A stretch of 64,000 nucleotides of DNA from Rheinheimera sp. (GTDB lineage Bacteria; Pseudomonadota; Gammaproteobacteria; Enterobacterales; Alteromonadaceae), in contig SSFI01000014.1 in NCBI GenBank assembly GCA_008015325.1, positions 103,343 to 167,342 on the forward strand. Direction: 5' to 3'. The position numbers were made by a program, and so were the translations under genes. The notes under the pieces were generated by a model that saw nothing but the letters and a program-made list of their open reading frames with translations, was not told the DNA's origin and ran no database searches. The first letter of the stretch is position 1; every line of letters starts with the position of its first letter. Of this stretch, positions 1,280 through 21,803 are shown one piece after another.

Positions 1280-2230
1280 TTAAACGTCACAAATCCGCAC
1301 GGCAGCCGCCAAAGACTGCACTTTGCCCTGTGGCGTTGCCGGCGTCGGAATGAATTCCTGCGCCAGATAGCCTTTAAACCCGGTCGCCACTATCGCTTTG
1401 GCGATCGCCGGGTAATACAGCTCCTGCGTGTCATCAATTTCATGGCGTCCCGGCACCCCGGCAGTGTGGTAATGGCCAAAATACTGATGGTTGTCCTGAA
1501 TGCTGCGGATAATGTCGCCTTCCATAATTTGCATATGGTAGATATCAAACAGCAGCTTAAAATTATTTGATTTCAGTCGTTTACAAAGCTCAATGCCAAA
1601 GCGTGAGCTATCGGCCAGATAATCCGGGTGATCGACTTTGCTGTTAAACAGCTCCATCTGCAGCACCACGCCGCGTTGCTCCGCCTGCGGCAAAATTTGC
1701 GACAAGCCAGTCACGGCGTGATTCAGTGCCGTTTCGCGGTCCATGCCGCGGGCATTGCCGGAAAAACAAATCAGGTTGGTGTAACCGGCGTCAGCGACCA
1801 AATCGATATGCGCTCTGTAGCGCTTGATAAGCTCAGGGTGAAACTCTGGGTTACACCAGCCATTGACCAGGTTAATTTCAGCGCCATTACACATCGAGCA
1901 GTCGATGCCGTATTTCTTCAGCGTCGGCCAGTCTTTAGGCCCGACCAAATCAATAGCACTGAAACCTAAGGATTTGACCAGCTGACATAGCTCCTCAATC
2001 GACAGATGGCCATAAGTCCAGCTGGCGACAGAGTGCTGCACCCGGCCTTTGAGCGCCGCTGCAGCGTTATTTGCTGCGACGCCATCTGTAGCCGGCGTTT
2101 GCGCAGCCGTTGCTGCACAGCCACTCAGTAATAATGACGGCCCGGCGACGCCAAGCGCCACACTGCCGGCAGCGAGCTGTTTCAGCATATTGCGGCGTGA
2201 CTCACCAGAATACTGGGTGGTTTTAGTCAT
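1280..2230 (-). CDS. Sugar phosphate isomerase/epimerase (hydroxypyruvate isomerase-like TIM barrel), exported
   Basis: ORF 1280..2239; SRRNMLKQLAAGSVALGVAG Tat-like signal and lipobox-like LLLSGC; xylose isomerase-like TIM barrel motifs; internal Met start at about 2230 likely. Confidence 0.8.
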   Translation of the reverse strand: MTKTTQYSGESRRNMLKQLAAGSVALGVAGPSLLLSGCAATAAQTPATDGVAANNAAAALKGRVQHSVASWTYGHLSIEELCQLVKSLGFSAIDLVGPKDWPTLKKYGIDCSMCNGAEINLVNGWCNPEFHPELIKRYRAHIDLVADAGYTNLICFSGNARGMDRETALNHAVTGLSQILPQAEQRGVVLQMELFNSKVDHPDYLADSSRFGIELCKRLKSNNFKLLFDIYHMQIMEGDIIRSIQDNHQYFGHYHTAGVPGRHEIDDTQELYYPAIAKAIVATGFKGYLAQEFIPTPATPQGKVQSLAAAVRICDV

Positions 2231-3461
2231 GACGGCCATCCTGCGCAGCTAAAGTCTCGTTTTTGAAAATCAGCGCAAACAGCACCAGCACTACCGCGGC
2301 AAAACCAGCCGGGAACAACCAGCTCTGGGTCCAGTCGGTGCCCGCAGCCGTGGTATAAGCCTGCGTCACTTGCCCTGCCACGCTAAAGCCGATCAGCATG
2401 CCAACGCCGTAGGTGGCCAGCGTAATAAGGCCCTGCGCCGCGCTTTTGTATGCCGCACCGGCTTTGCTGTTGGTATAAATCTGGCCCGAGACAAAAAAGA
2501 AGTCATAACAAATGCCGTGCAGGGCAATACCAACCAGCAATAACGCCACACCACTGCCGGCATCGCCGTAAGCAAACAGTACATAACGCAATACCCAGGC
2601 CGCCATGCCTAAAATCAAAGTCCAGCGAATACCAAAACGATTTAAAAACAGCGGCAACGCCAGCATAAAAGCGACTTCTGATACTTGCCCCAGCGTCATT
2701 TTGCCGGTGGCATTTTCGACGCCAACCGCAGTCAGAAAGGGGTTGGCATTCTGGTAATAAAACGCCAGTGGAATACAAATCAGAATGGAGGAGATAAAAA
2801 ACAGCGCGAAGTTGCGGTCTTTTAATAGTTTCAGTGCATCCAGTCCAATCAGTGCACCCAGTTTGACCTGAGTGCCGCGCGCCGCCGGCGGTGTGGCTGG
2901 TAAAGTAAAGCTGTACAGACCAAGCGCCAGAGACGCCACCGCACACATCAGGAAAGTGTTTTGCAGCGCACCGGCGGCAATCGCATCGGCCGCATCCCAG
3001 CCAAACAGGTAGCTGATGACCAGACCCGCCGCAATCCAGCCGATGGTGCCCCAGACGCGGATTTGACCAAACTCACGCTCAGGCTGCTGCATCTGACCAA
3101 AAGACACAGAGTTGACCAGCGCCAACGTTGGCATATAAGCCAGCATATAACCGAGCACTAACGGATAAAACGCAGCGAAATCCGTCGCCTGTGCCATCAG
3201 ATACATCAGCACAGCACCAATCAGATGCAGCACCGCCAAAATCCGCTCGGCGTTAAAAAAGCGGTCAGCGATAAGACCAATAAAAAACGGCGCGATAATG
3301 GCGCCCCAGCTTTGGGTGGAAAACGCCATACCGGTTTGCGGACCGTCTGCGCCCAAGTTCTGGCTTAAAAAAGTACCCAGCGTGACAAACCAGCCCCCCC
3401 AGATAAAAAACTGCAGAAACATCATCGTACTGAGGCGTATTTTTATTGTACTCATCGTCAT
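2223..3461 (-). CDS. MFS transporter, nucleoside:H+ symporter (NupG-like) family
   Basis: 412 aa polytopic protein, MFLQFFIWGGWFVTLGTFL...GLIADRFF typical of the NupG-like family. Confidence 0.8.
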   Translation of the reverse strand: MTMSTIKIRLSTMMFLQFFIWGGWFVTLGTFLSQNLGADGPQTGMAFSTQSWGAIIAPFFIGLIADRFFNAERILAVLHLIGAVLMYLMAQATDFAAFYPLVLGYMLAYMPTLALVNSVSFGQMQQPEREFGQIRVWGTIGWIAAGLVISYLFGWDAADAIAAGALQNTFLMCAVASLALGLYSFTLPATPPAARGTQVKLGALIGLDALKLLKDRNFALFFISSILICIPLAFYYQNANPFLTAVGVENATGKMTLGQVSEVAFMLALPLFLNRFGIRWTLILGMAAWVLRYVLFAYGDAGSGVALLLVGIALHGICYDFFFVSGQIYTNSKAGAAYKSAAQGLITLATYGVGMLIGFSVAGQVTQAYTTAAGTDWTQSWLFPAGFAAVVLVLFALIFKNETLAAQDGRHD

Positions 3462-3541
3462 CCCCGTGATTTTTGTTGTTGTGTTATTTGTTCTACTTGT
3501 TGTGTTTCGAGACCGCTATGACAAACCTCTGTTACAAACCG

Positions 3542-4597
3542 CTATTCGAGGCCCAAAATCCGTCTGTTACGCGCTGCATCCGAACTGCCACCGGCAAAAT
3601 CGTCAAAAGCGCGGCCGGCGCGGTCAATCAGATGCGCAGCGATAAAAGGTGCGCCCTCTTTCGCACCCTGCGCGGAGTCTTTTAAACAACATTCCCATTC
3701 CAACACGGCCCAACCGCGATAACCGTACTGAGTTAACTTACTGAAAATGCTTTTAAAATCGACCTGACCGTCGCCTAATGAACGAAACCGCCCCGGTCTG
3801 TCCACCCAGTCCTGATAACCGCCGTAAAAACCGGCGCGACCGTCTGGCCGAAACTCGGCGTCTTTAACATGGAACATTTTGATGCGGTCATGGTAGCGGT
3901 CGATAAACGCCAGATAATCCAGCTGCTGCAGCACAAAATGGCTGGGGTCAAACAGGATATTAGCGCGCGGATGAAAGTTGGTGGCCTGTAAAAACCGCTC
4001 AAAACTTGCGCCGTCGTGTAAATCTTCACCGGGGTGAATTTCATAACAGACATCTACACCAGCGGCGTCAAAGGCATCCAAAATCGGTAACCAGCGGGCG
4101 GCTAATTCGGCAAAGCCTTGCTCGACTAAACCGGCCGGACGCTGCGGCCACGGATACACCAGATGCCACAACAAGGCGCCGGAGAAAGTCGCGTGCGCCT
4201 TTAAACCCAAATTCAGGCTGGCTTTAGCCGCCAGCTTCAGCTGCGCAATGGCCCATTCAGTGCGTGCTTTCGGCTTGCCACGTAAATGCGCCGGCGCAAA
4301 GTTATCAAAGAGTTCATCATAGGCCGGATGCACCGCCACTAACTGGCCCTGCAAATGAGTGGACAGCTCAGTGATGCTGATCCCCACAGCCGCACATTGC
4401 GCTTTGATGTCATCGCAATAGGCCTGGCTGTTTGCCGCTTGTTCCAAATCAAATAGCGCCGGGTGATTGGTCGGCACCTGAATGCCTTTGTAGCCTAAAT
4501 CCGCCGCCCATTTCGCCATCGTGATGAGATTGTTAAATGGCGCGCTGTCGCCCATAAACTGCGCCAGGAAAATCGCCGGGCCTTGAATACTGTTCAT
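3542..4597 (-). CDS. Sugar phosphate isomerase/epimerase (AP endonuclease 2-like TIM barrel)
   Basis: 351 aa; motifs HPGEDLHDG, NILFDPSHF, IKMFHVKDAEF, GDGQVDFKSIF. Confidence 0.85.
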   Translation of the reverse strand: MNSIQGPAIFLAQFMGDSAPFNNLITMAKWAADLGYKGIQVPTNHPALFDLEQAANSQAYCDDIKAQCAAVGISITELSTHLQGQLVAVHPAYDELFDNFAPAHLRGKPKARTEWAIAQLKLAAKASLNLGLKAHATFSGALLWHLVYPWPQRPAGLVEQGFAELAARWLPILDAFDAAGVDVCYEIHPGEDLHDGASFERFLQATNFHPRANILFDPSHFVLQQLDYLAFIDRYHDRIKMFHVKDAEFRPDGRAGFYGGYQDWVDRPGRFRSLGDGQVDFKSIFSKLTQYGYRGWAVLEWECCLKDSAQGAKEGAPFIAAHLIDRAGRAFDDFAGGSSDAARNRRILGLE

Positions 4598-4652
4598 TGT
4601 GTGTCCTTCAAACCAAAATTCGTCAAATTCACGGCGTCAGCCACCCTTTTAA

Positions 4653-5840
4653 TTAGCCCACATCCGGCACGGCCTGCCATTTTTCGCTGCTGGCAGTGCT
4701 GACGGTGTCGATAAACGCCATGCCGCGTAAGCCGGCGCTGATGCCGGGGACTCCGGTTGGCGTGCCGCGCTCGCCTGCGCGAATAGCCTGAGCAAAATCA
4801 CGGTACAGATTGGCCATCGCTTCTAAATAACCTTCCGGGTGCCCTGCTGGTAAACGGCAACGTTTCAGCGCTTCAGCCCCTAAACCGGCCTGACCGGCAC
4901 CGGCGCGCAGCACATAAAACGGCGCGCCGTGTGGCCGGACTATGATGCTGCTTGGCTCCATCTGCTGCCATTCCAGCCCGCCTTTGTCGCCGTACAGGCG
5001 AATTTTCAGTGCGTTTTCTTCGCCGGCACAGATTTGACTGGCAATGAGCACGCCACTGGCGCCGCCATTGGTTTTAAACAGCGCCGCACCGTCGTCATCC
5101 AGCCGCCGGCCCGGTACATGACTGGTCAGTTCGGCACAAAGCTGATTGATGCGCTGGCCGCTGATAAATTCGGCGAGGCCAAAAGCATGAGTACCGATAT
5201 CAGCCATACAGCCGCTGTTACCGGCCTGCGCCGGATCTGTGCGCCAGCTTGCTTGTTTCTGCGCGCTGGCTTCTAAATTGTCGGTAAGCCAGCCCTGCGG
5301 GTATTCGACATAAATTTTGCGTAAAGTGCCCAGCACGCCGTCGGCCACCAGCTGTTTGGCCTGCCATACCATCGGGTAACCGAGATAAGTATGCGCCAGG
5401 CCATACAAGCGGTCGCTTTGCGCCAGCTCGGCTGCAAGCGTTTGTGTTTCAGCTAAGCTGACACCAGCCGGTTTTTCACAAAATACATGAAAACCTGCAG
5501 CAATGGCGGCGCGGCTGACCGGGACATGCAGCTGGTTCGGCGTAACAATTACCAGCAGCTGCATGCGCTCGTGTTCCGGCAGTGCCGCTTCACCGTCCAG
5601 CATCTGTTGCCAGCTGTCGTATACACGTTCTGGCGCGATATCGAGGCTTTCACCAGTACGCTGATTATTGCCAGAGTCGCGGCTGAAGGCACCGCACACC
5701 AGTTCAGTCTGACCATCTAATGCTGCAGCGTGGCGATGCACCGCGCCGATAAAAGCGCCTTCGCCGCCACCTAACATGCCTACACGAATTTTCTGTGAAC
5801 GGGGGCGAACGGAGTGGGTCATCTGGTTATCCTGCATCAT
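4653..5840 (-). CDS. Gfo/Idh/MocA family oxidoreductase
   Basis: ORF 4653..5939; IRVGMLGGGEGAFIGAVHR N-terminus and CEKPAGVSLAE (EKP motif). The annotated extension upstream of about 5840 runs through an operator-like palindrome, so a start at 5840 or 5822 is preferred. Confidence 0.88.
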   Translation of the reverse strand: MMQDNQMTHSVRPRSQKIRVGMLGGGEGAFIGAVHRHAAALDGQTELVCGAFSRDSGNNQRTGESLDIAPERVYDSWQQMLDGEAALPEHERMQLLVIVTPNQLHVPVSRAAIAAGFHVFCEKPAGVSLAETQTLAAELAQSDRLYGLAHTYLGYPMVWQAKQLVADGVLGTLRKIYVEYPQGWLTDNLEASAQKQASWRTDPAQAGNSGCMADIGTHAFGLAEFISGQRINQLCAELTSHVPGRRLDDDGAALFKTNGGASGVLIASQICAGEENALKIRLYGDKGGLEWQQMEPSSIIVRPHGAPFYVLRAGAGQAGLGAEALKRCRLPAGHPEGYLEAMANLYRDFAQAIRAGERGTPTGVPGISAGLRGMAFIDTVSTASSEKWQAVPDVG

Positions 5841-5916
5841 CTTTAAACGGAAATTGGCACCGGGCTCAGGCATCCGGTGTTTTTGGGAACACACGGACCA
5901 AGCCACTCGCAAAAAA

Positions 5917-5930
5917 TGTAACGGATTACA
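5917..5930. promoter_or_regulatory. Candidate LacI-family operator TGTAACGGATTACA
   Basis: TGTAA-CGGA-TTACA inverted repeat in the divergent interval between the Gfo/Idh gene and lacI-type gene. Confidence 0.55.
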
Positions 5931-6090
5931 TTTTACCACGTCAACCTAAAATCCGGCCAAAAGCAAAATATTTGCGGCATTTTTGCACAAAACCAATTTA
6001 AGCCGCGCACCAAAAACGAGCTTTTGCACTAAATTAATGCCAGATTTTGACCAGACACCTCTTCCCTGCACGGCGAAGATCGCTTATAAG

Positions 6091-6104
6091 TGATACCGGT
6101 TACA
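6091..6104. promoter_or_regulatory. Candidate LacI-family operator TGATACCGGTTACA
   Basis: Second palindrome-like site, about 70 bp upstream of the LacI-family gene. Confidence 0.5.
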
Positions 6105-6175
6105 TTGAAAGCTCTTGCATCCTCAGTCCTGCAACTGAGTAGAATGCCGGTTTGGATCCAACAACAAGTACACTT

Positions 6176-7222
6176 ATGTCCAATATCCGCGAAGTGGCCC
6201 GCCTGGCCGAAGTGTCCGTGGCTACGGTGTCCCGGACTTTGCAGCAACCCGATTTGGTGTCGCTGAAAACCCGTAATAAAGTGCTGGCCGCTGTCAAAGC
6301 GGCCGGTTACAAACCCAATTTGATGGCGGTGCGTTTTCGCTCCGGCAAGACGCATAATCTGGTGGTGTTGGTGCCGACAGTAGCCAACGTGTTCTTCGCC
6401 CGGGTTATCAGCGGCATGCAGGAAGCCGCACACGAAAACCAATACGCGCTGCTGCTCGGTAACACCCTCGGTGATGACGAGATGGAAGCGGCTTATGCCC
6501 GGATGGTGCAAACCTCGCAAGCTGACGGCCTTATTCAGCTGCGCGCCCACAACCCGTTTGATGCGCTGCAACAGCAGGACTCCGCTGACGACAGCCCGGC
6601 GCTGCTGCCAATGGTCAATGCCTGTGAAGTGCTGGATAAAGCGCCCTGCCCAACCGTGGTGCTGGATAACCGCGCCGCTGCCTGCGCCATGACTGAACAT
6701 TTATTAGCGCTTGGCCATCGCCGCATCGCGATGATTAAAGGCCCGGCCCGAAGCCCGCTGACACGCGACCGCGTCGCCGGTTATCGTGACGCACTGCAAG
6801 CAGCCGGAGTGCCTTTTGCTGCTGAGTTACTGTCACCCGGTAACTTCTCGCTGCAATCTGGTTTTGACGCTGCCGCCGATTTACTGGCGCTGCCCAATCC
6901 GCCAACCGCAATTTTCTGTGAAAACGACGAGATGGCGATTGGCGCCATGCAACGCATTAAACAACAAGGCCTGCGTGTGTCGGCGGATATCTCCGTCGCC
7001 GGCTTTGACGATATTTCTTTTGCCGCTTTTGCCGATCCGCCGCTGACCACAATCGCTCAGCCGGCGGAAGAGTTTGGCCGCACAGCGGTGCGCCTGCTGA
7101 TTGATGTGCTGGAAGGCAAACTCAGCAAAGCGCCGAAAGTGATTTTACCTTTTGACCTGGTGATCCGCGCCAGTACCGGGCCTGCACCAGCACCAAAAGA
7201 CAACCAGTCGGATAAAACTTAG
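6176..7222 (+). CDS. LacI family transcriptional regulator
   Basis: MSNIREVARLAEVSVATVSRTLQQPDLVSLKTRNKVLAAVKAAGYKPN helix-turn-helix; periplasmic-binding-like effector domain; start inside ORF 6152..7222. Confidence 0.93.
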   Translation: MSNIREVARLAEVSVATVSRTLQQPDLVSLKTRNKVLAAVKAAGYKPNLMAVRFRSGKTHNLVVLVPTVANVFFARVISGMQEAAHENQYALLLGNTLGDDEMEAAYARMVQTSQADGLIQLRAHNPFDALQQQDSADDSPALLPMVNACEVLDKAPCPTVVLDNRAAACAMTEHLLALGHRRIAMIKGPARSPLTRDRVAGYRDALQAAGVPFAAELLSPGNFSLQSGFDAAADLLALPNPPTAIFCENDEMAIGAMQRIKQQGLRVSADISVAGFDDISFAAFADPPLTTIAQPAEEFGRTAVRLLIDVLEGKLSKAPKVILPFDLVIRASTGPAPAPKDNQSDKT

Positions 7223-7262
7223 CCAAACCGATATTTGAACCACCACAACAGGGAGCTTCATC

Positions 7263-8138
7263 ATGTTCACCACCGAAAAACTGCCATCGCCGGGCCGCCG
7301 CCAATTCCTGCAGCACAGCAGTGCTGGCCTTGCGGCACTGGCTCTGCTTGGCAATCCGTTTCAGGCGCTGGCTGCTGGCTCGGGCAATTCCGCGAAAAAA
7401 GCCGGCCTGCAGCTTTATACCTTGCGTGACATGATGGAAAAAAGTGTCGCCGACACGCTGAAACTGGTGGCTGGTGTTGGTTTCGGCGATGTCGAATTCG
7501 CCGGTTATTTTGGCCACAGCGCCCAGGATATTCGCAAACTACTTGATGCCAATGGCCTTGCTGCGCCTTCAGTGCATGTGCCGCTCGAAGTGCTCAGAAG
7601 CGCGCTGCCGCAGGTGATACAGGATGCCAAAGTCATCGGTCATCACTACATAGTGCTGCCCTGGTTATCTGTCGAGCAACGTGGCGATTCGGTCGACAAC
7701 TACAAAAAACTGGCGGTGGAGCTGAACGGTTTTGCCAAACCAATCAAAGACGCCGGCCTGCAGCTGGCTTATCACAACCATGATTTTGAGCTGCTGCCGG
7801 TCAAAGGCGGTGTACCTTATGACGTGCTGCTCGGTGAGACGGATAAAGACTTAGTCAAAATGGAGCTGGATTTATTCTGGGCGGTCAAAGCCGGTGTCGA
7901 CCCGTTAAAACTGTTTGCCACCAATCCGGGCCGGTTCCCACTGGTGCATGTCAAAGATCTGGCCAAAGACGGCGCAATGGTCGATGTTGGCACCGGCACT
8001 ATCGATTTTAAAGCGATTTTTGCCAAGGCAGACCTGGCCGGCATTCGTCATCAGTTTGTCGAACATGACAACTCTGCCAACCGCATCACCACCATTCGCC
8101 AGGGCTACCAGGCGCTGTCACAGGTAATGAAAGGTTGA
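7263..8138 (+). CDS. Sugar phosphate isomerase/epimerase with Tat signal
   Basis: PGRRQFLQHSSAGLAALALLG twin-arginine signal; LAYHNHDFELLPV, ELDLFWAVKAGVDP, PLVHVKDLAKDG motifs. Confidence 0.87.
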   Translation: MFTTEKLPSPGRRQFLQHSSAGLAALALLGNPFQALAAGSGNSAKKAGLQLYTLRDMMEKSVADTLKLVAGVGFGDVEFAGYFGHSAQDIRKLLDANGLAAPSVHVPLEVLRSALPQVIQDAKVIGHHYIVLPWLSVEQRGDSVDNYKKLAVELNGFAKPIKDAGLQLAYHNHDFELLPVKGGVPYDVLLGETDKDLVKMELDLFWAVKAGVDPLKLFATNPGRFPLVHVKDLAKDGAMVDVGTGTIDFKAIFAKADLAGIRHQFVEHDNSANRITTIRQGYQALSQVMKG

Positions 8139-8821: not shown

Positions 8822-9143
8822 ACATCTATTGCAGATGCCTCTGTAAAAGCGCTGTCAGCCAGACCAGCAGCCCATGCTGATCTGGCTGCTGGCAGACACT
8901 TCCAGCCTTGCTGATCATGCATCGCATTCCAGACCAGAAGACCTGAATTGTTGTGTCGAGCATTCGATTTTACCCCTTCTTGCGCTTTTTTCTAAATCGA
9001 TTAAGATTCTGCTATACACAGTCGCGAAACCGGTGTAAAACTAATGTACGACGATTGGCGGGACTTCTGCCTGCCTCGCCTCGTGCGACAGCAAACAACA
9101 ACCAAACAACAATATAGTGCCAATCAGGCCAGGATCAGACGAG

Positions 9144-11063
<1,920 letters not shown>

Positions 11064-11211: not shown

Positions 11212-12318
11212 ATGATCAAAACTGCAGTAATTGGCTTTGGCCTGTCCGCCCGGGTGTTCCACCTGCCTTTTCTTGCCAGCAATGCCGACTTTAACCTGGT
11301 CGGCATCAGTACCGCACAGCCAGACGCCGCTTTGTGTTGGCCCGGTGTAAAGATTTACACCGATGCCAACAGTTTGATCCAGCACACTGACGCCAGTCTG
11401 ATTGTGATCACGGCGCCAAACCGCACACACTTCAGCCTCGCCAAAACCGCTTTGCTCGCCGGCAAAGATGTATTGGTGGAAAAGCCGCTGGCGGTGACGA
11501 TGGCCGAAGCCATCGAGCTTGAAAAGCTGGCACAGCAGCATCAGCGCAAACTGACGGTGTTTCATAACCGGCGTTTTGATGATGATTTTGTCGCGCTGCA
11601 ACAGCTAATGCTTTCAGGCCAGCTTGGCACTGTGCAGCTGATGTACTCGCGCTTTGACCGCTTTCGGCCACAAGTGCAGGCGCGCTGGAAAGAGTCGGCG
11701 GAGCCAGGCAATGGCGTGTTATATGATTTAGCGCCGCATCTGCTGGATCAGGCCATTGTGCTGTTTGGCGCTCCGGACAGCATCACTGCAAGCTGTCAGA
11801 GCCTGCGTGGCGACACATCACAAGCAGCGGCCGGTATCGATTATTTTCAGCTGCGGCTTGATTACCAGGCAACAGCGGCGTTGCCCGCCCGACAGGTTTT
11901 GCTCAGTTCATCACCTTTTTGTGCCCATCCGGCACCGCGTTTTGAATTACACGGCACCGGCGGCAGTGTGGTGAGTTTCGGGCTGGACCCGCAGGAGCAA
12001 TTACTGCGTAGCGCGCTGCAGCAGACTCCCCATCAGCCCACGGCAGTGTTTGATGACGCTGCCTGGCAACAGCGCTCGCTGCAGCGCCACGCCGACATTT
12101 GGACCGCATCAGGACACGGCACACTGCCATTTACCAACAGCCATTATGGTGATTTTTATCAGCAACTGGCGCTTTATCTGCAGGATCTCGGTCCGGCACC
12201 TGTTGCGCTTGCCAACGCCATACTGGGCTTGCAACTGATTGAGCTGGCGCTGCAAAGCAGCCGGGAGCAGCGCACCATCAAGACCGGCTCAGCCAGCTGT
12301 GACGCCGGGGGAGCCTGA
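11212..12318 (+). CDS. Gfo/Idh/MocA family oxidoreductase
   Basis: MIKTAVIGFGLSARVFHLPFLASN; LVEKPLAVTMAEA; FHNRRFDDDF. Confidence 0.9.
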   Translation: MIKTAVIGFGLSARVFHLPFLASNADFNLVGISTAQPDAALCWPGVKIYTDANSLIQHTDASLIVITAPNRTHFSLAKTALLAGKDVLVEKPLAVTMAEAIELEKLAQQHQRKLTVFHNRRFDDDFVALQQLMLSGQLGTVQLMYSRFDRFRPQVQARWKESAEPGNGVLYDLAPHLLDQAIVLFGAPDSITASCQSLRGDTSQAAAGIDYFQLRLDYQATAALPARQVLLSSSPFCAHPAPRFELHGTGGSVVSFGLDPQEQLLRSALQQTPHQPTAVFDDAAWQQRSLQRHADIWTASGHGTLPFTNSHYGDFYQQLALYLQDLGPAPVALANAILGLQLIELALQSSREQRTIKTGSASCDAGGA

Positions 12319-13251
12319 CGCTGAGTCGAGCAAATACGGCAAAAACTGCGCTTTGCGTTTCCAGAACAATAAACCGGCAGAACCCTGCTCAAGGGCACCA
12401 TAACTGAAATAGTCGATGCCTTGCAGCCAGGGTTTGTCCCGTTGCAATAACATGCTGACCAACTCCAGATGCAAAAGGCTCATCACCCCTTGATGTTGGT
12501 ACTGCGCATGCCCCATCAGTTCAGCATAACGCAGCATATTGCCTATCCGATGTAGCCGGGCATAGGCCAGTAATTGTTGTGACGTGACTACGTCCCCTTG
12601 CTGGTAACCGCTAACAGGTTTAAACACCCCCAGATACAAATCCCAATGTTCAGCGGCGTCGGGCAGCTGTAGTGGCTGAAACTGCGTCGGAGCGCCGCCA
12701 AGATCGGATAATGTCAGAGTGAAAGCATCGAGCACAGGTCCAAAAGCACGAACTTTTCGTGACCGGCGGATCGCCAGCATATCGGGCGTGTGGTTGGCCA
12801 GCATAAAAGGTTGCACCACCAAACCGGCGCGACGGGCTTTTTCGGCTTCGCGCCAGAAATTGCCGGCATTTTTCTTCAGCTGACGATTGAACTGCAGCGC
12901 ATCGGCGTAATGACACAACGGCAACAACATTGCGATGCCGCGCCGCACTGGCTGCCCGGCCTGCACAAACTGGCGGTAGTAAGCCTGATATCGCCGGATC
13001 AAGGGCGACGTACTGCTCCCGGTGCCACTAAGATTTAGCTGCGCGACCGGCAACGCAGTGGTCGCAAGCGCCGGGACAAATTGCGCTAAGCGCTGTGGCC
13101 GTCGGCGACGAAACCACAAAGGCTCCAGCTGCTGCGTGTACCATTTACTGATCGCAGAGGTGAATTTACTGAAGAAAGCCAATAGCTGACCCTGTCCGCT
13201 AAAAACCCAGATCCTAAAGCGCAGCCGGCAATAACTCAATGCCGGCTGCAC
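12289..13251 (-). CDS. Uncharacterised protein, acyl/aminoacyl-transferase-like (tentative)
   Basis: 320 aa ORF, tail-to-tail overlap with 11212..12318 and 11 bp downstream of the GH97 gene; C-terminal GLLFWKRKAQFLPYLL is acetyltransferase-like, but no firm family. Confidence 0.6.
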   Translation of the reverse strand: MQPALSYCRLRFRIWVFSGQGQLLAFFSKFTSAISKWYTQQLEPLWFRRRRPQRLAQFVPALATTALPVAQLNLSGTGSSTSPLIRRYQAYYRQFVQAGQPVRRGIAMLLPLCHYADALQFNRQLKKNAGNFWREAEKARRAGLVVQPFMLANHTPDMLAIRRSRKVRAFGPVLDAFTLTLSDLGGAPTQFQPLQLPDAAEHWDLYLGVFKPVSGYQQGDVVTSQQLLAYARLHRIGNMLRYAELMGHAQYQHQGVMSLLHLELVSMLLQRDKPWLQGIDYFSYGALEQGSAGLLFWKRKAQFLPYLLDSASGSPGVTAG

Positions 13252-13262
13252 AGATCTGCCGA

Positions 13263-15365
13263 TTAATGCGGCACGAACTCCATGGCAGCGCCACCACCGG
13301 GTGCCAACGACAGCTCCAGCACATCTTTGCTGTTAACCGCACGCCGCTGAATTTGATACGCCATTGGATTGGTTTGCCAGTGCGCTTCCGGCGCATCCAG
13401 ATACAGCACAGCGTCATAAATCTTGTCAGCGTCTAAAAACGACAACGGCAGTTTGACTGTGCGGGCCTGCTCATTACTCGTAGCGCCGACAAACCAGCGG
13501 TTGGAGTGTTTATCCTGCCGTGCCATCACCAGGTACTGACCGATTTTGCCGTCCAGCGCCACACTCTGTTGCCAGTCGGTCGGCACCGCACCAATAAAAG
13601 CAAACGCCGGATGCAGTTTGCCGCCCGGTGCATAATTTTCCGGCAAATCGGCCACCATCTGCAGCGGGCTATACAAAGTGACATACAGTGCCAACTGATT
13701 GACCAAGGTGCTCGGCACACGGTTATTCGGCCGGTGTTTTTGGTAGTTGAAGTTAAAAATGCCCGGCGTGAAATCAATGGGCCCGGACAAACCGCGGGTA
13801 AAAGGAATAATCACCGTGTGATTGGGCGCATTGCCGGTATCCGGGCTGCCGCCGTTATACTCCATACCGCGTACCGATTCGCGTGTCATCAGATTCGGGT
13901 AAGTGCGGCTTAAGCCAGTGTCTTTCACCGTTTCATGCGCATTGACCATCACCTTGTGTGCAGCTGCAGTGTCGACCACTTTTTTAAAGTGCTGCACCAT
14001 ATACTGGCCGTCATGCCACTCACGTCCGTCCAGCCGTTTGCCGACATACCCCATCTTGACGCTGTGGATACCAAGGCGCTGGTAGTACTTAAATGCATCG
14101 GCCATTTGTTGTTCGTAATAAGTGATACCAGCAGCGGTTTCATGATGGCCGATCAGGCCAACGCCTTTGGCTTTGGCATAAGCGGCGACTTTATCGATAT
14201 CGAAGCCTTTCACTGGTTTGGTGAAACTAAAGGTCGGCGGCCGCTGCCACCACTGCCCTTCCCAGCCCTGATTCCAGCCCTCAACCAATAAGCCGTCGAT
14301 GTCATGTTTGCTCGCAAAATCAATATATTGCATGGCGCGTGCTGTCGTTGCGCCTTGCAGCGGGCCCGGCGACCAGTCTCTTTCGCCAATATGCATCTCC
14401 CACCAGATGCCCATGTATTTACCCGGTTTAATGTAGCTGGTATCTGTACCGGCAGCCATTGGTTCATTCAGGTTTAAAATCAGGCTGGAATTTAAAAGTG
14501 CCGCTTCAGTCGGCGCGATTTGGATAGTACGCCATGGGCTTTGGAATGGTGCTTTGGTGTAAACCCGTTCGACCTGTGCAGCAGTATCATTGCCAGAATT
14601 GGCACCGCCCCAGGGCATCAGGTCGGCTTTCAGCGTGATATGGTTGTCGGTGATATTGCGCAGCGTCATTGAGCTGTAATCAACCAGCGCTGCTTCATGC
14701 ACGGCCAGCGCGATGCCATCATCAGTTAAGGTCAGCGGCGTATGCGCCACCGATACAGTCGATAACGCCGAATTCATATACTGATATTCAAAACTTAAGT
14801 TGCGGTACGCCTCAATCCACCAGGTGGAGAAGTTACGGGCAAAAGCAAATTCAGTCAGCTCATCGGTGATGACCAAATCGCCCGCCAGCGCCGGCTGCGC
14901 TGGCAGCTGGTAACGAAACGCCACCCCGTCATCATAACTGCGAAACACCAGTGTGAACTTGCGGCCTGGCGCTTTGGACTCCTGCAACTGCAACGTCAGT
15001 TCATTAAAATGATCGCGGATCTTGCTGCGTTGGCCCCATACCGGCTGCCAGGTTAAATCCTGACTGCGGTTACTGACCTTGCCCGCCACCAGGCCAGTTT
15101 TTAATGGCGGCTGGCCTTTAAACACCAGCCCCAGCACCGACGGCTTTAACACCGCTTTGCCACGATAACTGACCTGATAGGTCAGCGCTTCACCAGACAA
15201 CACCAGCTCCACGCTAATTTGCTGGTCCGGCGACAACAACTGCCAGCGCTGCGGCGTTATGAGCTGCTCTTCGGCCTGCACTGCGCCAACCAGTAGCAGG
15301 ACACTGAGCGTCAACACGCGGCTGATGTGATGATAAAACGCCATAGCTGCTCCATTTTTGTTCAT
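13263..15365 (-). CDS. Glycoside hydrolase family 97 (alpha-glucosidase/alpha-galactosidase, SusB-like)
   Basis: 700 aa with signal peptide; YIKPGKYMGIWWEMHIGERDW, DGLLVEGWNQGWEGQW, LIGHHETAAGITYYEQQM, NAHETVKDTGLSRTYPNLMTRESVRGMEYN are GH97 signatures. Confidence 0.92.
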   Translation of the reverse strand: MNKNGAAMAFYHHISRVLTLSVLLLVGAVQAEEQLITPQRWQLLSPDQQISVELVLSGEALTYQVSYRGKAVLKPSVLGLVFKGQPPLKTGLVAGKVSNRSQDLTWQPVWGQRSKIRDHFNELTLQLQESKAPGRKFTLVFRSYDDGVAFRYQLPAQPALAGDLVITDELTEFAFARNFSTWWIEAYRNLSFEYQYMNSALSTVSVAHTPLTLTDDGIALAVHEAALVDYSSMTLRNITDNHITLKADLMPWGGANSGNDTAAQVERVYTKAPFQSPWRTIQIAPTEAALLNSSLILNLNEPMAAGTDTSYIKPGKYMGIWWEMHIGERDWSPGPLQGATTARAMQYIDFASKHDIDGLLVEGWNQGWEGQWWQRPPTFSFTKPVKGFDIDKVAAYAKAKGVGLIGHHETAAGITYYEQQMADAFKYYQRLGIHSVKMGYVGKRLDGREWHDGQYMVQHFKKVVDTAAAHKVMVNAHETVKDTGLSRTYPNLMTRESVRGMEYNGGSPDTGNAPNHTVIIPFTRGLSGPIDFTPGIFNFNYQKHRPNNRVPSTLVNQLALYVTLYSPLQMVADLPENYAPGGKLHPAFAFIGAVPTDWQQSVALDGKIGQYLVMARQDKHSNRWFVGATSNEQARTVKLPLSFLDADKIYDAVLYLDAPEAHWQTNPMAYQIQRRAVNSKDVLELSLAPGGGAAMEFVPH

Positions 15366-15399
15366 CGGTTTGGATTGTTCCCTTGGATTTCCGGTTGCA

Positions 15400-16962
15400 T
15401 TATTCAGCGCGCCACAGCAAATGCTGTGGCTGAAAATTCAGGCTACAGCCTTGAAAAAATGCGGCCAGCTGAAGCTCAGTAAAAGCGTCACTGACGCCGG
15501 CCGGCTGCGGTTGGCGCAGCGGCGGAAATACGCCATACCCTGCCAGCAGACAATGCCAGGACGTGGCACCGAAATGACTGTCGAGTTGTTGTCGGGCAAT
15601 TTCATTGGCCAAATCCCCCTGGCGAAACCACACATCCAGAATTTGCCGCAGTGACTCGGACAGCTGCATATTGCTGCTATTGGCACGCCAGTAATGGCTG
15701 TCACTGCGACTGCTCAGTTTGTAATGCGCAACGATGTAATCGCGCACCGCTTCAAAGCGCTGGTGCACCTGACGGTTAAATTCGGCCTGTCCTTTCGCAG
15801 TAAAATCGGCAAAAGCATCAATAAATTGCTCAATCGAGCTTTGCACCAGATGCAGCGCGGTGGCCTCCAAAGGCTCAATAAACCCTTGGGACAAGCCAAG
15901 CGCCAGACAGTTTTTCTCCCAGCTACGACTGACCTGACCGACTTTCATCTGCAGATGGCGGGCATTTACCTCAGTATCCGGCAGCCCCAGGTGCTGACGT
16001 AATTCAAGCTCAGCGGCGTCTTTGGCAATAAACGCCGAGCTGTAGACATAGCCGTTGCCAGTGCGATGGCGCAGCGGAATTTGCCAGGCCCAGCCATTGC
16101 TCAGTGCCGTGGCGCGGGTTTCCACCGGCGGCATGGCAAAAGCGTCGGTGGGCAGTACCACCGCGGCATCGTTAAACAGGTTGCTGGCAAAAGATTCAAA
16201 CGGCACCTGCAACGTCTGTTGCAATAAACTGGAACGAAAGCCAGTGCAATCGACAAAAAAATCCGCGCTGATGACCTGTGTAACTTTGGCCCCGCCGTCC
16301 GCTGTTTCACCAGTCAGGCTGCCAATGCAGCCATCTGATAACTGATTGACTTGCGTCACAGTCATCGCGTGATAGTTCACACCAAGCGCCAGCGCTTTTT
16401 GCTTTAAAAACTGGCCCAATAACCCTGAGTCAAAGTGATAGCCATATTCGATGCGAAACGGAAAATTCGCACTGGGCAGCGGTGCCAGCTTTTCTGCCGC
16501 CAGATAGCCGTTGAGCAGAAATTTCTCCGGGGATGTTTCGACCGCAAGCCCGAGCCGGCGCTTAAAACAATTGCTGTAAAACGCCGTTTCGCTGTGCAAA
16601 TCCGGCTGCGAAATAAACGGATGGCTGTAGTCTGCACCCAGCCCCATCACTTGGGCCGCCGGGCTCCAGTTCACAAAACGGATATTGGTCTTGTATGTGG
16701 CCTGACAGGCCGGCATCCATTCATTGTCTGGGATACCAAGTTTTTGGAAAAAACGTTTCAGTGACGGCGTCGAACCTTCACCGACGCCGATAATGCCGAT
16801 ATCGGGCGCTTCCAGCAGCGTGATTGTTACCGCGCGCTGATTCGCTGCGGCAGGTTTAAGCCATTTGTCAGCAAACAACAAAGCCGCCATCCAGCCGGCG
16901 GTGCCGCCACCAAGAATGACAAAATGAAAAGGCTGAGATGTCGCTGACAAGGTGGCAGTCAT
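15400..16962 (-). CDS. Tryptophan halogenase-like flavoprotein (copy 1)
   Basis: VILGGGTAGWMAALLFA (GxGxxG), GVGEGSTPSLKRFF, NGWAWQIPL (WxWxIP motif), GLSQGFIEPLEATALHLVQS. Confidence 0.92.
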   Translation of the reverse strand: MTATLSATSQPFHFVILGGGTAGWMAALLFADKWLKPAAANQRAVTITLLEAPDIGIIGVGEGSTPSLKRFFQKLGIPDNEWMPACQATYKTNIRFVNWSPAAQVMGLGADYSHPFISQPDLHSETAFYSNCFKRRLGLAVETSPEKFLLNGYLAAEKLAPLPSANFPFRIEYGYHFDSGLLGQFLKQKALALGVNYHAMTVTQVNQLSDGCIGSLTGETADGGAKVTQVISADFFVDCTGFRSSLLQQTLQVPFESFASNLFNDAAVVLPTDAFAMPPVETRATALSNGWAWQIPLRHRTGNGYVYSSAFIAKDAAELELRQHLGLPDTEVNARHLQMKVGQVSRSWEKNCLALGLSQGFIEPLEATALHLVQSSIEQFIDAFADFTAKGQAEFNRQVHQRFEAVRDYIVAHYKLSSRSDSHYWRANSSNMQLSESLRQILDVWFRQGDLANEIARQQLDSHFGATSWHCLLAGYGVFPPLRQPQPAGVSDAFTELQLAAFFQGCSLNFQPQHLLWRAE

Positions 16963-16965
16963 GGC

Positions 16966-18483
16966 TCAGGCCTTGCTGTAGCGGGCGAGGAAATCATCAT
17001 GCGACAACATCTGCGCCAGCGGCTGCTGTTTGGCGTCCTGCACTTTGGCCAGCGTCGCCAGCAGTTCAGTCTCAGTTGGTACTTTGGCAGCAGGATGATA
17101 ATCCTGCGGCACAATGCCCTGCCCGAGCATCACCTGGATCCAGCTGGCGTCGCGGAAAATATCGTTATGGTCATTAAATACCTGCGCCGACTGCCGAAAC
17201 AGCGCCATTTTGTCGCGAAGCCGCTCTGGTACTGTCATATTGCGCATATCGCGCCAGAAGGCTGAATCATCGCGCTCATTGGCGTGGTAATGCAGGATGA
17301 TAAAATCACGAATGGTCTCAAATTCCTGTTTCGAATCAGCGTTGTAGTAATCGACCACTGCATCAGTGATGCCTTGATTCGGGAACACTTTGAGCAGGCG
17401 CACAATGCCAGACTGGATCAGATGAATACTGGTCGATTCCAGCGGCTCCAGAAAACCACTGGACAGGCCAATCGCCACCACGTTTTTTGCCCACTGGCTG
17501 CTGGTGCGGCCGGTTTCAAAACTGATTTTGCGCGGCTCCGCCAGCGCTTTGCTGTCCAGATTCCCCATCAAAGTGCTATGTGCTTCGTCATCACTTAAAT
17601 AATCCGAGCTGTAGACAATACCGTTGCCGTTACGGTGCGTCAGCGGAATGCGCCATTGCCAGCCGGCTTTGTGCGCGATACTGCGGGTGTATGGCACTGT
17701 TTTGGCAAAACGTTCACTCGGCACTGCCAAAGCGCTGTTGGCCGGCAGGTATTTCGACCAGGATTCATAAGCCACGCCCAGTGTTTTGCGAATCAGCAAC
17801 GCACGTAAACCGGTACAGTCGACAAATAAATCGCCGCTGATTTTGCGGCCATCTTTGAGTTGCAGCGCTTCGATATGGCCAGACATGCCATGTTGCTCAA
17901 CCGCTTCAATCATGCCTTCAGTGCGTTTGACGCCGGCAGCTTCAGCAATTTTGCGTAAAAACTGGCCGTACAACGCCGAATCAAAATGATAAGCATACGG
18001 CATTTCATACACAGGATTTGGCGTTTTGATAATGTTAAATTTGCCGGCTTCACAGCACAGATAGTTTAAATCGTAGTCCCACAAGGATTGCTTTAGCCCG
18101 GCTTGCTTCGCGCGTAACCAATAATGCTGGAAGTTACAAAAACCCAGGCTCGCCCCCGGCGCGCCAAAGGTGTGGTAATAGCTCTCGCCGGGTTTACGCC
18201 AGTTTTCAAATTTAATCGCCAGCTTCATCGTGGCGTGGGTGTCACGCAAAAAAGCTTTTTCATCAAGGCCCAAATACTGATTAAAAATCTGAATGGGCGG
18301 AATAGTGGCTTCGCCGACACCGACAATACCGATGTCGTCCGACTCGACGAGTTCAATCTCCACACTGTCTGCCAGCACTTTTTTCAGCAAAGCAGCCGTC
18401 ATCCAGCCGGCTGTGCCGCCGCCGGCGACCACGACTTTACGAATGGGTTTACCGGCAGAGCAAGTTGCAGGTGTTTGATGCAT
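16966..18483 (-). CDS. Tryptophan halogenase-like flavoprotein (copy 2, PrnA-like)
   Basis: VVVAGGGTAGWMTAALLKK, GVGEATIPPIQIFNQYLG, AGWQWRIPLTHRNGNG (WxWxIP), GLSSGFLEPLESTSIHLIQSGI. Confidence 0.93.
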   Translation of the reverse strand: MHQTPATCSAGKPIRKVVVAGGGTAGWMTAALLKKVLADSVEIELVESDDIGIVGVGEATIPPIQIFNQYLGLDEKAFLRDTHATMKLAIKFENWRKPGESYYHTFGAPGASLGFCNFQHYWLRAKQAGLKQSLWDYDLNYLCCEAGKFNIIKTPNPVYEMPYAYHFDSALYGQFLRKIAEAAGVKRTEGMIEAVEQHGMSGHIEALQLKDGRKISGDLFVDCTGLRALLIRKTLGVAYESWSKYLPANSALAVPSERFAKTVPYTRSIAHKAGWQWRIPLTHRNGNGIVYSSDYLSDDEAHSTLMGNLDSKALAEPRKISFETGRTSSQWAKNVVAIGLSSGFLEPLESTSIHLIQSGIVRLLKVFPNQGITDAVVDYYNADSKQEFETIRDFIILHYHANERDDSAFWRDMRNMTVPERLRDKMALFRQSAQVFNDHNDIFRDASWIQVMLGQGIVPQDYHPAAKVPTETELLATLAKVQDAKQQPLAQMLSHDDFLARYSKA

Positions 18484-18556
18484 AACAACTCCCTTGCATA
18501 ATAATGTATGGGTCTAGACTCTGTACGCTACATTAAAGCCTACACCAATACAGAAA

Positions 18557-18591
18557 AAAGGCCTCAATACCAAGAACTTATTGAGGCCTTT
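18557..18591. terminator. Rho-independent terminator/attenuator hairpin
   Basis: AAAGGCCTCAATA ... TATTGAGGCCTTT, 13-bp perfect stem; T-run on the minus strand, between the TonB receptor gene and the halogenase genes. Confidence 0.8.
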
Positions 18592-18603
18592 ACACCGGGT
18601 CGG

Positions 18604-21525
18604 TTAATAGAACGCGTAGTTCACGTTCAGCATATAAGTCGGGCCAAACTGCCGGCGCGTGGTGACGATGCCGTCGTCGTTGACGGTTTCTTCATCCACA
18701 TCGGTCAGGTTGGTGCCCTGCAGCGATACGCGCAGGCCGTGTAACGAGGTGAAGCTGCTCTCAGAGAAGTCATAACTGATTTGCGCGTCGACCAGCGTCA
18801 CGCCATTACGACTGGCAGTCGAGATTTTGTTCGAACCACCGCGCTCATAAGTCAGGAAGTCAGAACGGTCAGTGCCGGCCACCCGTACTTCAAAGCCATT
18901 TTTCTCGTAGTAAGCCGTTAACGAGAACACTTTGTCGGACTGGCCAGGAATACGGCTGCCGTCACTCAGTTTGGCGTCAATCAAAGTACCGGATGTCGCA
19001 ACACCAAAGCCTTCTAGTACATCAGAGAACTTACTGAACGGCACGTTGGCAGTCACTTCCACGCCATGCACGCGGCCGGTCAGACCGTCTTCAAAGTATG
19101 AGAAGTAACCATAATTTGGTGGTGTGACTTTCGCGCCAGCGGCGTAGAAAATATCTGCCGGGCCATAAGTACCAGCCTGGTCGATGATACGGTCGTGGAA
19201 GCCAGGGATAAAATAGTTGGCGCCACTGTTGGTTTCATCGTTGGTGAAGTTAATCAGCTTGTTACCGTCACGGGTCCAGTTGACCAAATCTTTGTAGAAA
19301 GCAGTCACCGACAAGTAACCTTCTTCTTCGAAGTAGCTTTCAAACGCCAGGTCGAAGTTATTGGCTTCCAGCGGTTTTAACAGCGGATTGCCGGCAAATT
19401 TCGACCAGGGTGAACCATAGGTTTCCACTGCTGCAGTGCTGTTTGGAATAGCAATCAGGTCGATGTTCTGGTCGAACTTGACAAAACCGGACGCTTTCAT
19501 CTGGTCGATACGGGCGCGGCTGATGGTTTTGTTGGCGGCAAAACGCACAAAGTTGTTGTCCGACACTTCCATGCTCAGGTTCAGGCTTGGCAGCACGTGG
19601 CTGTAGCTGTCGCCTTGCTCAGTGATACAGTCGGCATCCACTTGTTTGTCGCCGTTGTCATCGCAGACGGCAAAATTCGCGCCGACAATGCCGATAAAGC
19701 CGCTTGATGACTGGTCGGTTTTGACATATTGCATACCAAAATTACCGGTGACCGGGAGATCCGCCAGCTGGGTTTCAAAGTCAGTTTTGAAATACAGCGT
19801 GGTGACTTCTTCGTTGACATCATAGGTATCGCCCAGACGATCCGGCTCTAACAAACCCGCATCATTCAGCTTGTAAGTCCCATCGTTGTATGGTGCGAAA
19901 CCATCATAAGCCACCACCTGACCCAGACCTGCCCAGGTTAAATCCGCCAGCCCGCCATACAGATACTGGCTTGGAATAGCGGTTGAGAAAGGATAAGACG
20001 TTGCTGTGGCAAAGAAGCCTTTGTTGTCTTTGTCTTTGAAGCGGTCAGAGTAATTCACGCCAACCGTCAGTTTGTTAAAGATGCTGTATTCGATATTGCC
20101 GACAGCTTCTAAACGGTAGGTTTTCAGCTCTTCGCTGAAATCGGCATAGTTCAGGAAGCCATCCTGCGCGTTGAAGTAGCTGTACGGGTCGCCGTTGGCT
20201 TGTTTCACATTAGTGGCAAACTGGCTGGCGAGGTTCGCCATACCACCGCCCCACACTTGCGGGCCGGTCAGTTGTAAGGCTTTTGGATCGGAAAAGGCAC
20301 CCAGGCCGGTCAGTTTGGTGAAAAACACACCGTCCGGGCTCATGGTGAATTCGCGTGAACCTAACTGCGATGAGTTCAGTGCGCCAGAGCGGGCCAGACC
20401 GGCATATGATTCGCCGCGTAAATCGCGTTTGCTGGATTCGCTGCTGGCAACGTCTAATCCAACCTGCCAGTCATCGTTCAGCTGATATTCGACGTTCAGG
20501 CCAAAGGTCTGCAAATCGCCGTCTTTTTTCAGCGGGTCTGTGCGCAGCACCGGGTTAGCGCCAACCTGGGTGCCTGTGGTGCTGGTGCCGCTGCCGGTGA
20601 CATTGGCAGAAGAGAACGGCTCAATAAAACCGCGCAACACACCTGAATCGGAATAATCGATATCCAGCACATCCAGCACAATGTTCAGTTTGTCGTTTGG
20701 CTGATATTGCAACACGGTGGAAATGGTATCGCGCTCCAGCTTGGTGCTGATTGAAGCAATATCAAGACCGGTTGGCAGCACTTGACCAGCAGAATTGGCA
20801 CTATAACCCCAGACGCCATATTTACGCTGGTTATTCGGTGATTCAGTCGACGCCAGCGCAACCGCCAGGCCTAAAGTGTCATCAGCGAATTTCTCGACAA
20901 AAGACAACGCATAACGTTTGCCTTTGTTATCAAATTCCGGGTTGTCAGAATCGCGGCTGTTGGATTCATAGTTGCCGTTCACAGTCAGCGTTTCTTTGGC
21001 CTGCAGCGGGCGCACCGTGCGTAAATCGACAGTACCACCAATGCCCTGCACCATCAGCGTGGCATCTGTGGTTTTGTAGATGGTGGCGCCGGTCATAATT
21101 TCGGATGGGTACAGATCGTACTCCACGCCACGGTTGTCACCGATACCAATCAGTTCACGGCCATTTAACGAGGTGCCGGTGAAATCTTCTTTAAAGCCAC
21201 GCACTGAAATACCCGAAGTGCGGCCACCGACACGTTCACCGGCAAGGCCTGGTAAACGCGATAATGATTCAGCAATCGACGAATCCGGTAATTTACCGAT
21301 ATCTTCCGCGGAGATGGCTTCGACAATGGATGAGTTATCCATTTTTTCCGCCTGAGAACGAATTAACGAGCCGCGAATACCGCGCACGGCTATCACTTCA
21401 ACTTCTTCACCGGATTTCGCGGCAGCGCCGGCCGCCTGTTGCTCTGCCGCTGTTGCAGGTACCGCCCAGATGGCGGACGAGACTGCGAGTGACAGTAACG
21501 CGGGTTTAAATAATTGTGTTCTCAT
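18604..21525 (-). CDS. TonB-dependent receptor
   Basis: Signal peptide; VEVIAVRGIRGSLIRSQAEKMDNSSIVEAISAEDIGKLPDSSIAESLSRLPGLAGERVGGRTSGISVRGF plug domain; terminal FGPTYMLNVNYAFY beta-strand. Confidence 0.95.
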   Translation of the reverse strand: MRTQLFKPALLSLAVSSAIWAVPATAAEQQAAGAAAKSGEEVEVIAVRGIRGSLIRSQAEKMDNSSIVEAISAEDIGKLPDSSIAESLSRLPGLAGERVGGRTSGISVRGFKEDFTGTSLNGRELIGIGDNRGVEYDLYPSEIMTGATIYKTTDATLMVQGIGGTVDLRTVRPLQAKETLTVNGNYESNSRDSDNPEFDNKGKRYALSFVEKFADDTLGLAVALASTESPNNQRKYGVWGYSANSAGQVLPTGLDIASISTKLERDTISTVLQYQPNDKLNIVLDVLDIDYSDSGVLRGFIEPFSSANVTGSGTSTTGTQVGANPVLRTDPLKKDGDLQTFGLNVEYQLNDDWQVGLDVASSESSKRDLRGESYAGLARSGALNSSQLGSREFTMSPDGVFFTKLTGLGAFSDPKALQLTGPQVWGGGMANLASQFATNVKQANGDPYSYFNAQDGFLNYADFSEELKTYRLEAVGNIEYSIFNKLTVGVNYSDRFKDKDNKGFFATATSYPFSTAIPSQYLYGGLADLTWAGLGQVVAYDGFAPYNDGTYKLNDAGLLEPDRLGDTYDVNEEVTTLYFKTDFETQLADLPVTGNFGMQYVKTDQSSSGFIGIVGANFAVCDDNGDKQVDADCITEQGDSYSHVLPSLNLSMEVSDNNFVRFAANKTISRARIDQMKASGFVKFDQNIDLIAIPNSTAAVETYGSPWSKFAGNPLLKPLEANNFDLAFESYFEEEGYLSVTAFYKDLVNWTRDGNKLINFTNDETNSGANYFIPGFHDRIIDQAGTYGPADIFYAAGAKVTPPNYGYFSYFEDGLTGRVHGVEVTANVPFSKFSDVLEGFGVATSGTLIDAKLSDGSRIPGQSDKVFSLTAYYEKNGFEVRVAGTDRSDFLTYERGGSNKISTASRNGVTLVDAQISYDFSESSFTSLHGLRVSLQGTNLTDVDEETVNDDGIVTTRRQFGPTYMLNVNYAFY

Positions 21526-21698: not shown

Positions 21699-21712
21699 CT
21701 TAATCGTTTAAG
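21699..21712. promoter_or_regulatory. Operator-like palindrome CTTAATCGTTTAAG
   Basis: CTTAA-TCGT-TTAAG inverted repeat upstream of the TonB receptor. Confidence 0.55.
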
Positions 21713-21789: not shown

Positions 21790-21803
21790 CTTAATCGTTT
21801 TAG
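21790..21803. promoter_or_regulatory. Second operator-like site CTTAATCGTTTTAG
   Basis: Near-identical copy of the 21699 site, offset 91 bp. Confidence 0.55.

Follow-up and report, generated by a model that had tools for sequence, protein, structure and literature searches.

Why should an operon headed by a TonB-dependent receptor (TBDT) encode two flavin-dependent halogenases (FDHs)? The question is raised by a locus in a 64,000-nucleotide stretch of a Rheinheimera sp. genome (contig SSFI01000014.1; hereafter the window), where the receptor gene is followed on the minus strand by two halogenase genes, FDH-A and FDH-B, and by a glycoside hydrolase gene of family GH97. Halogenases linked to receptors abound in these bacteria, yet for those studied so far, BrvH and the enzymes from Xanthomonas, no native substrate is known. 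We find that the stable unit is the receptor together with FDH-A. FDH-B is an optional second enzyme, and GH97 is one interchangeable glycosidase, for which GH13, GH31 or pullulanase genes stand in elsewhere. The parts of the locus, in transcription order, are as follows.

18604..21525, minus strand: TonB-dependent receptor, 973 amino acids, first gene of the operon; PF07715 and TIGR01782, sugar-type subfamily
18550..18591, minus strand: terminator-like hairpin in the gap between receptor and FDH-A, AAAGGCCTCAAT, an 11-nt loop and ATTGAGGCCTTT, with a T run after it
16966..18483, minus strand: FDH-A, flavin-dependent halogenase, 505 amino acids, motif EPLEST, PF04820 at 611 bits
15400..16962, minus strand: FDH-B, divergent flavin-dependent halogenase, 520 amino acids, motif EPLEAT, PF04820 at 398 bits
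13263..15365, minus strand: GH97 glycoside hydrolase of α-glucosidase type, three GH97 domains
12289..13251, minus strand: uncharacterised open reading frame (ORF), 320 amino acids, last in transcription order

This order, with the two halogenase genes 3 bp apart, is the one given in an earlier note on this DNA, and the coordinates are confirmed; FDH-B and GH97 are separated by 34 bp. The receptor reaches 475.8 bits with TIGR01782 (cut-off 310). Purifying selection acts on all operon genes, with dN/dS values against the nearest relative of 0.014 (TBDT), 0.058 (FDH-A), 0.092 (FDH-B) and 0.064 (GH97).

The receptor and FDH-A form a stable unit

We picked loci by the receptor alone and read 40 of them, none fetched through FDH-B. 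FDH-A lies directly downstream of the receptor in 37, while the genes that follow vary (GH97, GH31, GH13, pullulanase); the halogenase thus goes with the receptor, not with the sugar. Three of these loci (L213, L226 and L229) have no adjacent FDH. At L199 only the start of FDH-A is present, followed by a block of N, and genome G012 was withdrawn as a case of natural FDH loss, 7,000 N beginning right after the FDH-A start. Four relatives of the same genus carry the receptor, FDH-A and GH97 without FDH-B, and tblastn at those loci returns FDH-A alone, with no FDH-B remnants.

The genome of the window tells the same story. It measures 3.86 Mb, from which we estimate about 3,500 genes; 34 are TBDT genes and six are full-length PF04820 genes, spread over four loci. 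At all four a TBDT gene stands immediately upstream on the same strand (chance about 1e-8, given 34 TBDT among about 3,500 genes), a pairing beyond chance. The downstream glycosidases are GH97 in the window, GH1 on C60, GH13 on C59, and GH30 with GH3 on C109.

Across 119 related genomes, PF04820 occurs in 75, with a maximum of 12 copies in one. Relatives of FDH-B are found in 40 and GH97 in 41; 29 genomes hold both, against 13.8 expected under independence, an excess that phylogeny inflates. The earlier note would have counted co-occurrence no better than chance against its proposal, which passes on this point; the gene set also extends to Alphaproteobacteria. The two genes lie within 20 kb of each other in about 10 of the 29 genomes. 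Among FDH-B neighbourhoods, the run TBDT, FDH-A, FDH-B recurs in many genera, and GH97 follows directly only in the genus of the window. Adjacent FDH-A and FDH-B genes in one direction make up 31 pairs, mostly overlapping or within 13 bp.

Elsewhere the same parts are rearranged. Four Sphingomonadales loci (L138, L143, L149, L150) bring together TBDT, FDH-A, FDH-B, GH97 and GH13 with the last three moved; a Microbulbifer locus (L166) has two FDH-A-type genes between receptor and GH97, and a Halieaceae contig (L192) has one. In the 121 surveyed loci, GH97 is present in 20 and some α-glucan or sucrose enzyme in 59. GH97 does co-occur with FDH-B, as proposed earlier, but it is not a fixed partner, being swapped for GH13, GH31 or pullulanase genes. 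Two bacterial classes share the pairing of receptor and FDH, which is why the halogenases probably work for the transporter and not in an antibiotic pathway.

The gap between receptor and FDH-A is conserved in form. Strong hairpins with a T run behind them occur in 73 of 101 receptor-FDH gaps (shuffles: mean 3.25, maximum 10; coding controls: 9 and 5), with stems that vary in sequence from locus to locus. A general terminator scan passes over the hairpin of the window, its loop limit being 8 nt against the 11-nt loop. The structure looks like an intrinsic terminator, judged by its sequence; acting as a partial one, it would hold the output of FDH-A and FDH-B under that of the receptor.

Some receptor loci carry further genes. 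C60 also has SapC, Cupin_8, DUF6445, a symporter and LacI, a hint at a modular set with several modifying enzymes per receptor; the second FDH there is only 31% identical to FDH-B. This second two-FDH locus of the genome (L011:6703-15534) reads TBDT, divergent FDH, SapC, Cupin_8, FDH-A, DUF6445, GH1, symporter, LacI. The window itself has neither SapC nor a flavin reductase, as noted before, and the genome has both elsewhere: SapC on C60 and C39, and a single Flavin_Reduct gene on C94. Its Cupin_8 gene is on C60. Also in this genome, the receptor gene at L101:1075-5035, of sugar type, has a Cupin_8 gene behind it and no FDH. Another receptor family shows the order TBDT, FDH-A, Cupin_8, FDH-B in several genera (L071-L075, L077, L078). 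In relative G002 (L246:12810-17944), an FDH-like protein of 460 amino acids and 21% identity is encoded between two FDH genes, before DUF6445.

FDH-A and FDH-B as enzymes

We checked key residues in 126 FDH-A and 78 FDH-B sequences. The FAD-binding motifs GxGxxG and WxWxIP are invariant in all of them; together with EPLE(S/A)T, reported earlier as kept, they are present in both enzymes and fixed within each clade. The catalytic lysine and glutamate (K79 and E346 in PrnA) correspond to K87/E349 in FDH-A and K91/E366 in FDH-B, and are likewise invariant, as is the His-x-Phe pair that faces the substrate in RebH. The clades differ at the residue after the catalytic glutamate: serine in 126/126 FDH-A, alanine in 78/78 FDH-B, where it is Ala367 in the enzyme of the window.

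By its sequence, FDH-A sits near Xcc4156 and BrvH, clearly nearer than to tryptophan halogenases. Its closest solved relatives are 9luq, Xcc4156 (6y1w) and BrvH (6frl); it scores 523 bits with Xcc4156 and 445 bits with BrvH, and about 309 or less with true tryptophan halogenases. FDH-B falls outside the BrvH/Xcc4156 group and, from these comparisons, is a separate branch of FDHs: it is about equidistant from all solved members (268 bits with BrvH, 257 bits with tryptophan 5-halogenase). Its predicted model (pLDDT 81) matches FDH structures with TM scores of 0.75-0.82 and E ~1e-39. We rejected a recent duplication of FDH-A as the origin of FDH-B, because the two share 35% identity, against 48-53% between FDH-A and the other FDH-A copies of the genome. 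One FDH-B relative (L029, G067:C12:167433-168911) has an in-frame TGA and is possibly a decaying copy or a sequencing error.

In alignment to RebH, the segment gripping tryptophan by its amino and carboxyl groups, which we take to lie around Y454, E461 and W466, is missing or replaced in FDH-A and FDH-B. Because this segment is missing although the His/Phe and Lys/Glu residues are kept, the two proteins are very probably genuine FDHs that do not halogenate free tryptophan. Nor do they keep the company of secondary-metabolite genes characteristic of free-tryptophan halogenases: they stand among genes for receptors, glycosidases and LacI, in line with the carbohydrate setting, without tryptophan or antibiotic pathway, described in the earlier note. 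No signal peptide was seen by eye on either FDH, and both are probably cytoplasmic, where a general reductase would supply their FADH2.

Operators and the candidate sugar

Palindromic operators of LacI type tie the receptor gene to an amylosucrase gene of the window.

21699..21712: operator CTTAATCGTTTAAG, no mismatch, ~187 bp upstream of the receptor gene
21790..21803: second copy CTTAATCGTTTTAG, one mismatch, ~278 bp upstream of the receptor gene
8992..9005: operator CTAAATCGATTAAG, one mismatch, upstream of the amylosucrase gene
9117..11063, plus strand: GH13 enzyme of amylosucrase or sucrose-hydrolase type (Neisseria amylosucrase 1g5a, E = 2e-188), candidate member of the regulon

Allowing up to two mismatches, we find the palindrome CTTAAWCGWTTAAG four times in the window, against 0.42 expected, and three of these copies lie in promoters: two ahead of the receptor and one ahead of gene 9117. 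Genome-wide, at one mismatch, it occurs in just two further places, C15:31029 and C37:4478; at the former it precedes a gene of the major facilitator superfamily (MFS) that a lacI gene adjoins. Among related genomes, an operator stands upstream of 15 of the 69 receptors of the window type, all in or near the branch of the window (shuffles 0.1), while the other 32 receptors have none. Relative G016 carries the palindrome in the space that separates amylosucrase from a divergently oriented PfkB-family kinase gene, an arrangement in keeping with sucrose catabolism.

Since the palindrome is common to the receptor, the amylosucrase and the MFS gene beside lacI, the locus is very probably part of a sux-like regulon for sucrose or α-glucosides. 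The sugar itself is more likely sucrose or a related α-glucoside than maltodextrin, to judge from the operator common to the receptor and amylosucrase genes. The GH97 product has its best PDB matches in the PspAG97A-type α-glucosidases 5hqc/5hq4 (E ~1e-177, aligned over 650 residues), followed by SusB (E ~1e-136), and its N-terminus resembles a signal peptide by eye.

In the pathway that we propose, the TonB receptor would let the sugar in and GH97 would trim α-glucosides, probably in the periplasm. The MFS transporter and amylosucrase, encoded elsewhere in the regulon, would complete sugar use. Operators, homology and gene order suggest that a LacI-family repressor acting on CTTAAWCGWTTAAG would switch these genes jointly.

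What the halogenases may modify

Sugar enzymes come and go, but the FDH remains with the receptor, which makes a receptor-linked substrate likelier than one linked to the sugar. The chemistry of the pocket points to an indole or phenol moiety carried by a molecule bigger than free tryptophan. Side chains of proteins, above all those of the receptor, would suit the linkage as well as the pocket; we regard such a target as quite possible, and hold it as a tentative assignment. As a whole, the best explanation that we can offer, also tentative, is a sux-like uptake operon whose FDHs act on an aromatic group tied to the outer-membrane step. They would halogenate or oxidise that group, a side chain of the receptor or of another protein. 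Bromination would be the probable type of halogenation, by analogy with Xcc4156 and BrvH; FDH-A would be the standing enzyme and FDH-B the optional second.

Several observations weigh against this explanation. No aromatic column (Trp, Tyr or His) of the receptor tracks the presence of FDH-B, and where FDH-A stands alone (G016, G010) the receptor still shares 90-92% identity with receptors accompanied by both FDHs. The invariant W239 and W425 persist in L213, L226 and L229, which lack an FDH, and have no counterpart in most of the distant FDH-linked receptors; no tryptophan is common to all FDH-linked receptors and missing from unlinked ones. Y540 and W425 occur more often in linked than in unlinked receptors, but mostly within one clade, outside which the alignment is poor. 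The receptor is exported, while the FDHs look cytoplasmic. To our knowledge, no halogenated outer-membrane protein has been described. As for the sugar, sucrose is read from the amylosucrase, the kinase and the operator, and from these only.

Four other explanations compete with this one. A close competitor, though rather unlikely in itself, is that the substrate of the FDHs is a small aromatic molecule in free form (indole, phenol or a plant aryl glycoside) that arrives with the sugar or signals it, the product being a signal, a detoxified compound or an inhibitor of competitors. The indole turnover of BrvH is so low that its authors doubt indole as the natural substrate (PMC5945002). FDH-A moreover remains with the receptor across changes of sugar enzymes, and no efflux, acyl-carrier or aromatic-metabolism gene recurs beside the FDH pair among the named clusters; what speaks for such a free substrate is that no receptor residue tracks FDH-B. 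The fold and flavin might instead be used for hydroxylase or oxidase chemistry, as in QhpG and LodB, which belong to the same superfamily and reportedly mature a partner protein by modifying a protein-bound tryptophan. The alanine that replaces serine beside the catalytic glutamate in 78/78 FDH-B, close to the halide site, would suit this, as would the neighbouring Cupin_8 genes, an oxygenase-like family. The matches to the QhpG and LodB models are weak, however, at 25-37 bits far under the cut-offs of 240 and 400, and the catalytic lysine and glutamate of halogenases are invariant; we consider this chemistry distinctly unlikely.

The earlier note thought of an outer-membrane glycan or a sugar ligand; that the FDHs modify either of these, or the imported sugar, strikes us as very improbable. 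Glycosidases are constantly nearby, but they are freely swapped while the FDH stays. FDH chemistry requires an electron-rich aromatic, and a sugar is therefore chemically unlikely as its substrate. The earlier proposal, modification of receptor, glycan or sugar instead of free tryptophan, thus stands as far as free tryptophan goes, the holding segment being absent; its sugar part runs against the chemistry, and the receptor gained no support from residue patterns. There is hardly any chance that these are classical tryptophan halogenases of an antibiotic pathway, here by accident, as the automatic family name (PF04820, Trp_halogenase) might suggest: no biosynthetic genes lie around, the tryptophan-binding segment is absent and the receptor linkage spans dozens of genera.

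If the receptor is indeed the target of the FDHs, nutrient uptake would be tuned by a protein modification of a kind not seen before. A broader proposal, which we consider unlikely, is that sugar-type TonB receptors of Proteobacteria are matured before export by receptor-linked FDHs, with SapC, Cupin_8 and DUF6445 at some loci, which would halogenate or hydroxylate receptor aromatic side chains, FDH-B being a second site- or halide-specific enzyme. If this holds, outer-membrane transporters would for the first time be seen to have a halogenation system of their own.

Relation to known systems

Beside malA of the Caulobacter mal locus lies a tryptophan-halogenase gene; a second one is not known there. 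The mal locus (MalA receptor; mentioned in PMC1790865) shares with ours the general receptor class and α-glucan enzymes, and serves maltodextrin, not sucrose. The sucrose carbohydrate utilization (CUT) locus sux of Xanthomonas campestris has a TonB receptor, an amylosucrase, an MFS-type transporter and a LacI-family regulator in common with ours, here linked by the palindrome and homology (PMC1790865). As described, however, its four genes include no FDH-A, FDH-B or GH97, and the genes here are scattered over two contigs. The partners of SusB-type GH97 enzymes are SusC and SusD, whereas here they are a proteobacterial TonB receptor and FDHs. Unlike the case of QhpG and LodB, no quinoprotein partner is seen in the locus.

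Among halogenases, BrvH of Brevundimonas BAL3 (PDB 6frl) lacks the contacts to the carboxyl and amino groups of tryptophan, as do FDH-A and FDH-B, and a second FDH gene with 42.7% identity lies directly upstream of its own (PMC5945002). No native substrate has been assigned to BrvH or to the halogenases of Xanthomonas (PMC7336383). Unlike BrvH and Xcc4156 of Xanthomonas campestris (PDB 6y1w), FDH-B carries the serine-to-alanine change, and the FDHs here are known from their sequences.

The earlier note called the locus its best candidate for an undescribed system. That goes too far, as the link between FDHs and TBDTs as such has already been noticed and tandem FDHs have been shown for BrvH; our literature searches found no open paper on the function of receptor-linked halogenases. 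What this analysis newly adds is the regulon, an optional FDH-B clade whose alanine is fixed, the gene set found across classes, and the conserved hairpin. The window makes the problem tractable, with its compact operon, a candidate regulon, a likely inducing sugar, relatives with FDH-A alone or no FDH, and a residue marker for FDH-B.

Other genes of the window

The 320-amino-acid ORF (12289-13251), which the earlier note placed in the operon, has no match in Pfam or NCBIfam. We rejected it as part of the system: it is absent from the two nearest relatives and was found in just 3/387 class genomes, its own included. Besides these, one Caballeronia plasmid encodes a relative that matches the C-terminal part. 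It is a sporadic accessory gene. ORF 6029-6700, which overlaps a LacI gene and has no Pfam match, was dropped as a gene.

Positions 1280-5939 and 6152-8138 encode an AP_endonuc_2 protein, a NupG-like symporter, a second AP_endonuc_2 protein and a Gfo/Idh/MocA protein, as well as a divergent LacI, whose gene spans 6152-7222, and a third AP_endonuc_2. This cluster resembles a 3-keto-glycoside pathway that would act on the sugars of the operon. In the relatives L048, L049, L195 and L198, part of it directly adjoins the receptor-FDH operon, and at L247 it runs on with a gene for a 563-amino-acid oxidoreductase-like protein and small partners.
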